DNA from: an uncultured Bacilli bacterium
GTDB lineage: Bacteria > Bacillota_I > Bacilli_A > RF39 > UBA660
NCBI GenBank assembly: GCA_944371325.1
Contig: CALVXO010000001.1
Span: 62,001 to 126,000 of the forward strand
Reading direction: 5' to 3'
DNA: 64,000 nucleotides
Made by a program: the position numbers and the translations under genes. Under the pieces are notes generated by a model. That model made no database searches. It saw nothing but the letters and a program-made list of their open reading frames with translations, and was not told the origin of the DNA. Within the stretch, counting starts at the first letter, position 1. The number at the start of each line of letters is the position of its first letter. This document shows, piece by piece, positions 2,168-6,109 of this stretch.

Positions 2168-2196
2168 TTGTAAATTATAAATAAATATGCTATAAT
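2168..2196 (+). promoter_or_regulatory. Promoter of the antisense (antitoxin-like) RNA
   Basis: A -35 box TTGTAA (2168-2173) and a perfect -10 box TATAAT (2191-2196) are 17 bases apart, six bases after the glmS stop. Transcription would start near 2203 and run toward the opposed peptide gene. No protein gene with a ribosome site follows on this strand. Confidence 0.7.
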
Positions 2197-2202
2197 GTAT
2201 AT

Positions 2203-2310
2203 AGATGAGAAATTCTCATATAATAAAAAGGAATACCTAATGCGCTTTTTTAGGTACTATCCCTTAATTTTATGGATTTAGTACCGACTTATACAGTTGG
2301 TACTATTTTT
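2203..2310 (+). ncRNA. Candidate antisense RNA of a type I toxin-antitoxin pair
   Basis: This roughly 108-base RNA is inferred from a strong promoter at 2168-2196 and a strong intrinsic terminator at 2279-2310. No open frame with a ribosome site is seen in it. It begins with a small hairpin (ATGAGA/TCTCAT, about 2205-2219) and contains a second hairpin at 2230-2263. It overlaps about 90 bases of the 3-prime end of the oppositely directed peptide mRNA, including the last seven codons of the peptide. This geometry matches type I antitoxins such as RatA and SR4 of Bacillus subtilis. Function is inferred; no sequence match to a named RNA is claimed. Confidence 0.6.
2221..2263 (-). terminator. Intrinsic terminator of the small-peptide mRNA
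   Basis: Read leftward, the sequence forms a stem between 2263-2250 and 2240-2230 around an AAAAGCGCA loop, followed by TTTTTATTA (2229-2221). The same arms are complementary to the 5-prime end of this mRNA at 2412-2436, so they can also take part in a long-range closure of the transcript. Confidence 0.72.
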
Positions 2311-2311
2311 A
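2279..2311 (+). terminator. Intrinsic terminator of the antisense RNA
   Basis: A ten-base-pair stem (2279-2288 with 2296-2305, one G-U pair) closes a seven-base loop and is followed by five T. The stop codon of the opposed peptide gene lies in the loop at 2289-2291. Confidence 0.8.
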
Positions 2312-2381
2312 TTAGCATAATTAAAATTATGACAATAAGGAGAATAATGATTAGAAAAAGACATTTTTCAGTTTGTTTCAT
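2289..2381 (-). CDS. 30-residue hydrophobic peptide, candidate type I toxin
   Basis: An ATG at 2379-2381 follows a strong ribosome site (AAAGGAGG, spacing about eight bases) and opens a 30-codon frame ending TAA at 2289-2291. The peptide begins MKQTEKC, continues as an almost unbroken Leu/Ile/Val run of about 18 residues that would span the membrane once, and ends KIVPTV. A Lys at each end of the hydrophobic run fits a single membrane helix. It has its own promoter (2443-2471) and terminator (2221-2263), and an opposed RNA covers its 3-prime end. Size, hydrophobicity and antisense layout match type I toxins such as TxpA, BsrG or Fst, although no residue-level match is claimed. It could instead be a harmless small membrane peptide. 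Confidence 0.62.
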   Translation of the reverse strand: MKQTEKCLFLIIILLIVIILIMLIKIVPTV

Positions 2382-2442
2382 TATATCAACCTCCTTTCAC
2401 ACTAAGCGAAAGGAATAGTACCTCATTAAGTATTCCAAAATA

Positions 2443-2471
2443 ATTATAACATATAATTAATTTAGTATAAA
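2443..2471 (-). promoter_or_regulatory. Promoter of the small hydrophobic peptide
   Basis: On the minus strand a -35 box TTTATA (2471-2466) and a perfect -10 box TATAAT (2448-2443) are 17 bases apart. The start point would be near 2436, exactly where a 25-base element (2436-2412) begins that can fold on itself or pair with the transcript's 3-prime end. Confidence 0.68.
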
Positions 2472-2475
2472 CAAT

Positions 2476-2501
2476 AAAAACTCTCTAGATAGAGAGTTTT
2501 T
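2476..2501. terminator. Bidirectional terminator hairpin
   Basis: CTCTCT (2481-2486) and AGAGAG (2491-2496) form a stem around AGAT, flanked by five A and five T. It ends the leftward YtxH-like gene, whose stop lies at 2505-2507, and separates it from the toxin-like cassette. Confidence 0.8.
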
Positions 2502-2504
2502 ATA

Positions 2505-2660
2505 TTACATCATTTCTTCTAATTCTTTGTTCATTTTTTTCATTGTTTTATTAGCAAATTTTTCCATTTTTTTCATAACGGGTTTACTATATTTTTGATA
2601 TGCCATAGTAGCACCTACACCAATACCTATTAACATCATACTTTTTGCGACATTCTTCAT
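2505..2660 (-). CDS. Small YtxH-like membrane protein
   Basis: The product has 51 residues: one short glycine-containing hydrophobic segment (LIGIGVGATMAYQ, about residues 8-21) and a highly charged amphipathic Lys/Glu tail. This is the layout of YtxH-family stress-associated envelope proteins, though shorter than most, so the family name is tentative. The start was set at the ATG 2658-2660 because AGAGGTGA lies eight bases upstream; a longer reading from 2705 has no ribosome site and would run through that site. Role unknown. Confidence 0.6.
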   Translation of the reverse strand: MKNVAKSMMLIGIGVGATMAYQKYSKPVMKKMEKFANKTMKKMNKELEEMM

Positions 2661-2716
2661 ATAAATCACCTCTTTATTAGAAAAAACGAAGGTATGTATA
2701 AACATACATTATTATT

Positions 2717-4903
2717 CTAACCTTTATTTAAAATATTATTCTTTAATTGTTCTAATAAATTAGTTTTTCTTGTTCTTTCATTACTATTATTTACAGCATA
2801 TAAAAATGCATCTGGTTCACCTATTAAAATTAATTTTTTCTTAGCTCTAGTAATACCTGTATAAATTAATTTTTTATAAAGCATTCTTTTATAACTATTA
2901 CATATAGGCATAATAACTACTTCAAATTCACTGCCTTGTGATTTATGGATTGAAATAATAAAACCATGAGTTATTTTATTTAAATCTTTTGTTTCATATT
3001 TAACTAAATTCCCATCGAAATCAATATAAATAAAAGTTTTATTTTGAATTTTAACAATATTTTTAATAATACCAATATCACCATTATAAATATTTTCTTC
3101 AGGTAGATTTACTAATTGTAATACTTTGTCATTTTCTCTATAAACAACATCACCATATTTAATTTCATTTTGGTTTGTTTTAGGATTAAATATATTTTGT
3201 AATTCTTTATTTAAATTATCAATTCCATTAATACCCGCATACATTGGAGCCATTATTTGAACTCGTTTATAATCATAACCTTTTTCCTTTAATTGTAAAC
3301 ATAAATTTTTTAAATTGTCTTTAATTGAATGACATTTTAAAAATGTATAATCACTTTTAGTTTCTAAGAAAGATTCACTTAAATTATTATCTTTTATTTC
3401 ATGTGCTAAAGTAGTTATATAAGAATTTTCATCAGTTCTATATAATGTATCTAAATAAATAGTATCAATCAAATCACTTTCAATTAAATCTTTTAAAATA
3501 TTTCCTGGGCCTACTGAAGGTAATTGGTGATGATCACCTACTAGTACTAATTTAATATTTTTAGTTAACCCTTTAAATAAACTATCTAACAAATTTAAGT
3601 CAATCATACTAACTTCATCAATTATAATTAAATGATGATCATTTTTATTATATTCATTAACTAAAAATTCATTTGTTTCTTTATTCCATTTTAAAAATCT
3701 ATGAATTGTACTAGCTGGTAAATTAGTAGATTCACTCATTCTTTTACTAGCTCTTCCGGTTGGTGCAAGTAAAGCTATTCTATTAGTTAATTCTTCATAA
3801 GATAATTTAAATATATTTTGATATAATTCACATATTGCTTTGATAATAGTCGTTTTTCCTGTTCCTGGTCCACCAGTTATAATAGTTATATTATTTTCTA
3901 ATGATTTTTTAATTGCTTCTTTTTGTTTATCGTTATATTTAATATTATTAATCTTTTCTAACTCTTCTATTCTATTATCTAAAAATAATTTATCAATTTT
4001 TTTATTTGCTAAATATTTAATTGTATTGGTAATATTAATTTCTGAATCATACATTTCTTTTAAATAATACTTATTATCAATTAAAATTATTTTATTTTCA
4101 TTAATCAATTCTTCTAAATATAAATCAAAATCATCAACATTTAAATCAATTTTTAAATAATTAAAAACACTTTCTAATATTTCATCATATTCCAAGTAAG
4201 TATCACTATTAGCAAATAATAACTTATTCATCATATAAATAATACAAGCTTTAATTCTTCTTTCATCTGATACATCTACATTTAATTTTAAAGCTATTTC
4301 GTCAACTTTTAAAAATGATATAAAATCAGTTAAACAATAAGGATTATGTTCTATATGAATTATAGTTTCACTTTTGTATGTATTATATATATCTAATGCA
4401 TCTTTCATATTAAAACCTAATTCAGTTAAATAAACTATTATTTGATGACTTTCCTCATATTTCATCAATGTTTCATAAATTGTATGAGCTTTTTTATTAG
4501 TCATTTTAGGTACTAACAATAGACATGTTTCATCTTTTATTATTTCATCTAAAACATTTTTACCTAACGTATCAACTATGGATTTAGCCAATTTCTCTCC
4601 TACTCCTTTAAATAAATCACTTGATAAAAAAGCTACTAATCCATCTTCATCTTCTGGTTTTAATCGTTCATATTCTAATACATTAAATTGTAAGCCATAT
4701 TTAGGATGATCTACCACATCTCCTTTAAAAATATACATATCATCTAAATTTAATTCATGAAAATAACCAGTAAATGTTATTATTTTATTAACATAAATTT
4801 TTAATTCTTCGTTATCGGTTTCTTTTATTTTAAATAAGCCAATAACATATCCTTTTTCTGATGCAAAAATAGATTTGCGATAATTTCCTTTTATATATGT
4901 CAT
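2717..4903 (-). CDS. recD2: RecD2-type ATP-dependent DNA helicase
   Basis: RecD2 is a 5-prime to 3-prime superfamily 1B helicase acting in replication-fork repair without RecB and RecC. The 728-residue protein has an N-terminal OB-like part, helix-hairpin-helix stretches around residues 90-250, Walker A GGPGTGKTT near 345, the motif IIDEVSMID near 430, GDHHQLPSVGPG near 455, and a C-terminal motif THGFIISIHKSQGSEF with TGITRAKKKL near 695. The start is ATG 4901-4903 with AAGGTG six bases upstream; the GTG nine bases earlier lies inside that site. It ends with TAG. Confidence 0.93.
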   Translation of the reverse strand: MTYIKGNYRKSIFASEKGYVIGLFKIKETDNEELKIYVNKIITFTGYFHELNLDDMYIFKGDVVDHPKYGLQFNVLEYERLKPEDEDGLVAFLSSDLFKGVGEKLAKSIVDTLGKNVLDEIIKDETCLLLVPKMTNKKAHTIYETLMKYEESHQIIVYLTELGFNMKDALDIYNTYKSETIIHIEHNPYCLTDFISFLKVDEIALKLNVDVSDERRIKACIIYMMNKLLFANSDTYLEYDEILESVFNYLKIDLNVDDFDLYLEELINENKIILIDNKYYLKEMYDSEINITNTIKYLANKKIDKLFLDNRIEELEKINNIKYNDKQKEAIKKSLENNITIITGGPGTGKTTIIKAICELYQNIFKLSYEELTNRIALLAPTGRASKRMSESTNLPASTIHRFLKWNKETNEFLVNEYNKNDHHLIIIDEVSMIDLNLLDSLFKGLTKNIKLVLVGDHHQLPSVGPGNILKDLIESDLIDTIYLDTLYRTDENSYITTLAHEIKDNNLSESFLETKSDYTFLKCHSIKDNLKNLCLQLKEKGYDYKRVQIMAPMYAGINGIDNLNKELQNIFNPKTNQNEIKYGDVVYRENDKVLQLVNLPEENIYNGDIGIIKNIVKIQNKTFIYIDFDGNLVKYETKDLNKITHGFIISIHKSQGSEFEVVIMPICNSYKRMLYKKLIYTGITRAKKKLILIGEPDAFLYAVNNSNERTRKTNLLEQLKNNILNKG

Positions 4904-4928
4904 ACAATTCACCTTCTAAAATTATATC

Positions 4929-4972: not shown

Positions 4973-6109
4973 TTATCCTATTCGGAAAGCAGGAGCCACA
5001 CCCAAGATAGAATCAGCAAGATTATTATACCAATAACCTGAAGTTCCCACAAAATAGAAATTAAAAAAATCATTAGAAGTAGTTGAGCGCAACCACCAAT
5101 CATTTAAACTTCCTTGGTAATTTTTTACTACTCCTGAATAGGAATCCATAGTTACTCCATTATTTTTATAATAATCTAATTGTTTTGTTGAATCAGTGGC
5201 ACTATCAGATCCAATACTGCTTCCCCACACTTCTTTTGTTGACAACAAATATAATTTGTTTGTTGATGTAAAATTAGATGAATTATCACTACCGTGTCCT
5301 GAAATGGTGTACGTATTAATTATAATGTTTTGTAAATAACTTGGCAAGGCATTGTATATATCGATATTTACAAAACTATACATTTTACTTTCTGGCCATC
5401 CTCATGAATTAATAGCAGTTGAATTCATTATTATAATATCAACAAATTCTATTACAAATCCACAGGCTGTTTGCGAAAAGCCTTCTGCTCCACACTCTGA
5501 CGGTGTTGATATATTTGCTATTCTCACTGTAAACGTTTGTTCACTTCCATTTGTATATCCTTCTACAGTTACTTCTTTTTCATCACCGACATTGTAATAT
5601 TGATCTACTTTCCCTGATTTTACAATAGCAGCTATTGTTTTCCATGAATCCTCTGCAAATGATACTGATTCAGGAACACTTGGTTCAGTTGGAGTGTTTG
5701 TTACACAACCATCTGATTCTAATGCCATACTTCCATTTGAACATAATACATATCTATTTTGGTTACTTATAACTACTAAATTTGTTAATTTACCATTTGA
5801 ATAAGTATTTGATTCTACTGTTGCACTTCCTAGATTTACCATTTTACTTATTTCTTCTATTGTAAATGAAGTTTTACTTGAACAATCTACATCTTCATCA
5901 GTTAATGTTCCCAATTGTTTTTTCATTTCAATAGATGCACAATAATTATTTATTCCACTTAATATCATATTTGCTTCCGAAGAACCTGCTGATTTTCTTG
6001 CATCGTCTACTACATCTAATATGATTGGGATTGCTATTAATGCTACTATTGCTAATATAATTATTACTGCTAATAATTATATTAATGTAAATCCTTTTTT
6101 TAGATTCAT
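4973..6109 (-). pseudogene. Pilin-headed DUF6273-type surface protein, interrupted by two in-frame stops
   Basis: An ATG at 6107-6109 behind GGGAGG opens MNLKKGFTLI and then meets TAA at 6077-6079, exactly where type IV pilin signals carry the conserved Glu at +5 (GAA to TAA). The same frame continues through a hydrophobic helix, a Cys-containing middle and a C-terminal domain with SGHGS, KLYLLSTKEVW, DWWLRS and APAFRIG, typical of DUF6273/C-type-lectin-like domains. A second stop, TGA at 5402-5404, stands before GWPESKMYSFVN, where the family (from memory) has GGWPxS, so a Gly codon GGA to TGA is likely. No frameshift exists over 379 codons. Promoter (6161-6190), ribosome site and terminator look intact. 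Restart at ATG 5966-5968 could give a headless protein. Confidence 0.75.

Follow-up and report, generated by a model that had tools for sequence, protein, structure and literature searches.

A candidate type I toxin-antitoxin cassette with a predicted self-closing toxin mRNA in a family of uncultured Bacilli

What is encoded in the short stretch between glmS, which ends at position 2162, and a terminator-like hairpin at 2474-2503 in the genome of an uncultured Bacilli bacterium (GCA_944371325.1; 1.57 Mb in 77 contigs)? This genome belongs to an order which we take to go by the name RF39, and the window analysed here comprises 64,000 nucleotides of its contig CALVXO010000001.1. A preliminary description had proposed a type I toxin-antitoxin cassette in which the mRNA of a small hydrophobic peptide closes on itself and is opposed by an antisense RNA. 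Our analysis makes it likely that a chromosomal cassette of this kind is present, with transcription, toxicity and antitoxin action all being inferred.

Each of the elements proposed for the cassette was present at its position in the sequence, the list of open reading frames, the promoter and terminator scan or the predicted folds (Table 1). The putative toxin had been described as a single-helix hydrophobic peptide with a strong ribosome site, and both a short single-span peptide and a strong site (AAAGGAGG) upstream of its gene were confirmed. The two opposed promoters were also found. Because single promoter-like matches are expected by chance in AT-rich DNA (55 such sites found versus 57 in shuffles), support for these promoters comes only from their conservation in relatives. 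Among 127 loci the toxin -10 was a perfect TATAAT in 103, where 8% would be expected in random sequence of the same composition. The distance from the -10 to the first closing base was 6-7 nt in 113 of the 127, and with this spacing the toxin mRNA should begin on the first closing pair.

Of the two proposed terminators, that of the antitoxin was detected by the terminator scan (2279-2305 plus T-tract), and that of the toxin appeared in the predicted folds only, as the hairpin 2263-2230 followed by UUUUUAUUA. The scan missed it because of a loop that was too long and a small gap ahead of the T-run. The antitoxin terminator forms a clean 11-pair stem on the plus strand only; read on the minus strand, 2279-2305 contains an A.C mismatch and lacks a U-run, and the two terminators are therefore staggered and not shared. 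An A-tract between the 5' hairpin and the second hairpin of the antitoxin was found in all peptide types and reads on the other strand as the U-tract of the toxin terminator.

Table 1. Features of the cassette, with positions counted from the first nucleotide of the window.
Feature	Position	Strand	Remark
Whole cassette, about 300 bases	2170-2477		Missing between glmS and its terminator in two same-genus genomes, G010 and G017
Antitoxin promoter, TTGTAA-17-TATAAT, TG before -10	2168-2196	+	10/12 matches; -10 and start region kept in relatives
Antitoxin RNA, about 109 nt, three hairpins (predicted)	2203-2311	+	Covers the 3' UTR and last codons of the peptide mRNA in antisense
Antitoxin 5' hairpin, ATGAGA-AAT-TCTCAT	2205-2219	+	Outside the toxin mRNA; stem kept among relatives, sequence varies
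Toxin terminator U-tract (A-tract on +)	2221-2229	-	Conserved in all peptide types
3' closing arm of toxin mRNA (predicted)	2230-2263	-	On the + strand, second hairpin of the antitoxin
Antitoxin terminator	2279-2311	+	Overlaps last peptide codons (IVPTV, stop)
30-residue hydrophobic peptide, putative toxin	2289-2381	-	MKQTEKCLFLIIILLIVIILIMLIKIVPTV
Shine-Dalgarno AAGGAGG	2390-2396	-	Read in the sequence
Local leader hairpin over Shine-Dalgarno	2391-2415	-	Predicted to hide the Shine-Dalgarno with or without closure
5' closing arm of toxin mRNA (predicted)	2412-2436	-	First base is the predicted transcription start
Toxin promoter, TTTATA-17-TATAAT, TG before -10	2443-2471	-	10/12 matches

The toxin-strand RNA (2436-2221) was predicted to fold at -65.6 kcal/mol, compared with -34.2 kcal/mol (sd 4.1) for 200 dinucleotide shuffles, none of which was as good (z -7.6). 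This fold contained the same helices by which the 5' end of the peptide mRNA had been proposed to pair with its 3' end, namely 2436-2424 with 2242-2230 (13 pairs) and 2423-2412 with 2263-2252 (12 pairs). The antitoxin RNA (2203-2311) folded at z -5.0 into its 5' hairpin, second hairpin and terminator.

A blastn search of 60 genomes recovered full, syntenic copies from five genomes of the genus (92-95% identity), copies reduced to the antitoxin half from two, and diverged ones from other genera of the family; the same-genus genome G008 carries the same locus. In a scan of GTDB genomes the terminator motif was hit in 95 stretches, which with few exceptions were labelled as uncultured Bacilli, Tenericutes, Clostridia, Erysipelotrichaceae or similar; they contained 96 places, most of them encoding a peptide of 29-30 residues that ends in KIVPTV behind a strong ribosome site. 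Sixty-one complete loci passed, and 60 intact homologous loci were aligned over both RNAs. L052 matched the terminator only and was excluded. Co-conservation in related genomes had been suggested as a check, and it was borne out in this alignment, where 99.0% of the cells in the 26 closing pairs held standard pairs compared with 24-45% when the columns were slid by 1-3. Double-change cells in these pairs numbered 13 versus 5.8 in shuffles, a count that is inflated by the relatedness of the sequences. Two closing pairs were changed on both sides, which is not above shuffles (2.1), and covariation is thus modest inside the KIVPTV family. Columns 7-217 and 11-213 run through C-G, U-G, U-A and G-C, G-U, A-U, with no breaking combination seen.

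A stronger test of closure is the comparison across cassettes that differ in both peptide and arms. We grouped the peptides into types A (KIVPTV), B, C, D, E and G, a grouping of our own. Thirteen of 15 representatives had pairing energies of about -32 to -38 kcal/mol between the leader and the 3' arm of the same mRNA, the exceptions being D3 (leader clipped by the 110-nt limit) and D5 (leader lost); between peptide types, leader and 3' arm paired at a mean of -17.3 kcal/mol. Closure of -25 kcal/mol or lower was predicted in 122 of 123 distinct peptide-bearing loci (99%) versus 2% with shuffled arms, and the mean closure energy was -34.7 versus -16.4 kcal/mol. These loci were ascertained by the antitoxin module or the KIVPTV terminator and not by closure, and the lone failure, L004, had lost its leader arm. 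The first 12 nt were paired with the last 70 in 134 of 134 predicted mRNA structures, a set that had been pre-selected for a strong arm duplex. A loose inverted-repeat search without the 5' module gave many chance matches and was not used. A lack of compensatory changes in the arms would have refuted the proposed cassette; instead, two pairs in the KIVPTV family vary on both sides without being broken, and the arms of the other peptide types are wholly replaced and still complementary.

Closure had further been likened to that of the inert full-length toxin mRNAs of hok and AapA1. The likeness held for the shape, with both ends closed, and failed for the block of translation. In KIVPTV-type mRNAs the predicted mean unpaired probability of the Shine-Dalgarno was 0.09-0.12 for nascent, complete and trimmed transcripts alike; a further comparison gave 0.08 at full length and 0.11 after removal of the last 60 nt, a removal that also left access nearly unchanged in types C, D and E, the larger of the other types. 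Closure as a mask of the ribosome site was therefore rejected, as predicted access was the same without the 3' arm and the local leader hairpin is predicted to hide the Shine-Dalgarno. Fst-like pairing between antitoxin and leader was likewise rejected as being at background level: the leader and the second hairpin of the antitoxin paired at a mean of -16.6 kcal/mol, equal to shuffled arms (-16.4), versus -34.6 to -34.7 kcal/mol for the leader and its own 3' arm. With Shine-Dalgarno access unchanged and leader-antitoxin pairing at background, what selection on the arms appears to preserve is the joining of the toxin mRNA's 5' and 3' ends, rather than masking of the Shine-Dalgarno or binding of the antitoxin at the leader. 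Since closure does not affect predicted access to the ribosome site, its role is only inferred.

In 13 loci the peptide was broken or missing, and all 13 had a scoring antitoxin module. These loci were found via the antitoxin terminator, which could favour antitoxin retention. Around peptide matches in other genomes of the family, the module was found in cis in 36 of 40 stretches; three of the others (L237, L265, L275) were cut by contig ends and in one (L272) the peptide N-terminus was lost, so that 36 of 37 matches not cut by a contig end had the module. Relatives that had the peptide but no longer the opposed promoter would have spoken against the cassette; within these 40 stretches, no intact peptide was seen without antitoxin except at contig ends. 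In two genomes (L014, L015) other DNA takes the place of the toxin half beside glmS, with an identical breakpoint in both, and the antitoxin half was retained with 96-98% identity.

A covariance model of the antitoxin 5' module, built from 28 sequences and 85 positions, found 14 copies in the genome of the window. Sampling of the family gave the cassette in 205 of 291 genomes (about 70%), spread over 113 of the 150 genera. A sample of the order had it in 210 of 288 genomes, all matches listed falling in the same family, and a sample of the class in 37 of 395, of which 36 belonged to this family and one to another. Copies per genome reached at least 15 among the matches listed, and since 15 was the number scored per genome, copy counts are lower bounds. 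The one cassette from another family of the class (L222 in G586) had a complete E-type peptide and a predicted closure of -38.5 kcal/mol, and represents either a transfer or a misbinned contig. In G010 and G017, which lack the cassette beside glmS, the flanks were otherwise syntenic and no target duplication was seen. Plasmids gave no cassette match. Viral contigs gave no exact match to two cassette patterns, and a phage origin was rejected on this ground.

Some cassettes were arranged in tandem. C-type cassettes were repeated at L030 1-1307 (G000:C9) with a period of 349, 3.7 copies and 84% matches, and D-type arrays of about 380-410 bp with peptides of 20-22 residues were seen at L028, L029, L040 and L050. 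In these D-type loci a leader ORF with a stronger ribosome site starts upstream of the peptide and overlaps it, an arrangement that suggests translational coupling. Many copies (L024, L036, L025, L059, L090 and others) lie on or close to the end of a contig, as if short-read assembly tended to break there, and copy numbers may be underestimated.

Constraint on the peptide was only moderate, with a pN/pS of 0.49 over codons 2-23 and 0.36 over codons 9-23 compared with 0.54-1.72 in the five other frames, the lowest of these values belonging to an antisense frame. The last codons, which double as antitoxin terminator, hardly vary (pS 0.02). The earlier remark that no family with this peptide was known to its author agreed with our searches of Pfam, NCBIfam, PHROGs and PADLOC. 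At their curated cut-offs, Pfam and NCBIfam gave no match for any peptide type, neither Hok-type nor txpA/RatA or bsrG/SR4 peptides being matched; no Fst-type family appeared even at E 10, and no match was found in PHROGs and PADLOC at E 0.1. Rfam gave only glmS and a tRNA for the whole window and nothing at or above gathering in 2100-2600. Several peptide types are alike in composition and may therefore be diverged relatives rather than unrelated.

Among the neighbouring features, the glmS ribozyme (288-433; Rfam RF00234, 79 bits) lies upstream of glmS as expected. A 66-aa ORF (2505-2705, minus strand) without Pfam match at cut-off is located between the cassette and a helicase-like ORF (2717-4912), and is found in the same place in relatives. 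At 4973-5968 on the minus strand an in-frame TGA near 5400 splits a gene into two ORFs, probably a case of pseudogene, recoding or sequence error; an altered genetic code was rejected because TGA serves as a normal stop in the window, where it ends 10 other ORFs with 120 aa or more.

How might such a cassette work? Both RNAs would be made, and the peptide, once translated, would harm the membrane. Going by the sequence comparison, transcription of the toxin mRNA (about 212 nt) should set in at the first base of the 5' closing arm, whose partner is the 3' end of the same molecule, and the ribosome site is predicted to sit in a local hairpin; the sequence of the convergent RNA is fully antisense to the 3' region of this mRNA, closing arm included. 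Closure would keep the full-length mRNA inert and shield its 5' end from 5' exonucleases. The antitoxin, perfectly antisense to the 3' arm, would compete with closure, pair with the 3' region and open it, and opened mRNA and antitoxin would form a long duplex cut by RNase III, so that the mRNA would be removed while antitoxin is made. Translation would then need both loss of the antitoxin and opening or trimming of the mRNA. We tentatively suggest, as a possibility and without claiming it to be probable, one conserved RNA chassis, made up of the antitoxin promoter, the 5' hairpin, the antisense RNA and a self-closing toxin mRNA whose very first nucleotide is already paired; it would carry at least six hydrophobic peptide types and be spread family-wide, and closure would act as a removable 5'-end shield, lifted by the antitoxin from the 3' side to trigger decay.

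The same RNA anatomy could also serve a non-toxic, antisense-regulated membrane micropeptide in signalling or envelope stress. Toxicity is only inferred, and at least 15 copies per genome among the matches listed would be a heavy toxin load; toxin-dead copies nevertheless keep the antitoxin, no intact-looking peptide lacks it outside contig ends, and type I toxins typically come as multicopy, tandem and patchily spread cassettes whose hydrophobic peptides can be swapped. We therefore regard a non-toxic role as unlikely. More doubtful still is an Fst/par-like mode of action, in which the ribosome site would be blocked by antitoxin bound to the leader through the end repeats, in the manner of DRa and DRb in par of pAD1, and closure would be a palindromic by-product. 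Convergent layout, similar mRNA length, a ribosome site in a 5' stem-loop and a sequestered 5' end (PMC7472228) fit such a mode, whereas leader-antitoxin pairing no stronger than that of shuffled arms, repeats that are inverted and not direct, and a terminator that is not shared do not.

Inverted repeats of about 25-35 bases, many copies, an empty site in relatives and contig breaks at copies would also fit a mobile element, such as a MITE, in which terminal inverted repeats merely resemble closing arms. The empty site, however, sets the limits of the unit outside the repeats, with both promoters included and no target duplication, and on this point a mobile inverted-repeat element was rejected. 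Its repeats would also have to differ wholly between peptide types and still be complementary, to begin 6-7 nt after a -10 and to enclose a peptide under some coding constraint, all of which leaves very little room for this explanation. Chance, that is, AT-rich DNA with a spurious ORF, promoters and hairpins, can hardly be entertained: promoter-like matches are indeed no rarer in shuffled sequence, but the combination had been called unlikely by chance, and the toxin mRNA fold together with conservation over more than 100 loci and over 113 of 150 genera agrees with this, conservation having already refuted a chance origin.

These cassettes form a large unannotated class of candidate type I loci in gut bacteria for which we found no such report in the literature consulted. 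Pairing between the two ends of a toxin mRNA has been studied in hok and aapA; in the present loci the predicted closure is conserved many times over and uncoupled from masking of the Shine-Dalgarno, which opens its own role, in stability, as decay trigger or as antitoxin target, to testing. A single regulatory chassis shared by several peptide types would reveal the way in which type I toxins are exchanged.

Type I systems have been described in Proteobacteria, Firmicutes and Tenericutes, and in 2025 in a cyanobacterium (PMC12390103); a literature search for RF39 together with toxin-antitoxin found no report. The general criteria of a short single-span hydrophobic peptide with strong ribosome site and of an antisense RNA with its own promoter and terminator were met, the latter on sequence evidence and without a transcript having been shown. 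Among the known families, Fst/par of Enterococcus and other Firmicutes is alike in its convergent promoters, the small hydrophobic peptide encoded on an mRNA of similar length (about 230 nt in par of pAD1), the ribosome site in a 5' stem-loop, the sequestered extreme 5' end and the existence of chromosomal relatives (PMC7472228). The cassette differs in that its repeats are inverted where those of par (DRa/DRb) are direct, its 5' end is held by the 3' end and not by a local upstream helix, its terminators are staggered whereas par shares a bidirectional one, its antitoxin has no specific match to the leader, and its peptide matched no Fst-type family.

With hok/sok and aapA/IsoA the cassette shares a full-length toxin mRNA that is closed end to end, by prediction in our case, and local hairpins covering the ribosome site; their peptides were not matched. 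While sok acts on the leader region, the antitoxin described here is antisense to the 3' end of the mRNA. In the aapA3 mRNA of 225 nt the closing interaction carries an anti-Shine-Dalgarno (PMC6733600); neither this feature nor a Shine-Dalgarno freed by 3' trimming was met in the cassette. The txpA/RatA and bsrG/SR4 systems are convergent with a 3' overlap and form an extensive duplex, with RNase III as the likely executor (PMC8167048). The cassette shares with these and related Bacillus systems the convergent genes overlapping at their 3' ends, and differs in its peptide, TxpA having 59 aa and family searches giving no relationship. We know of no end-to-end closure in the txpA/RatA and bsrG/SR4 family. 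As single features are shared with par, aapA3 and txpA/bsrG and a defining feature of each is lacking, the cassette is not a member of a named family, and we call it a putative new variant of type I toxin-antitoxin system.
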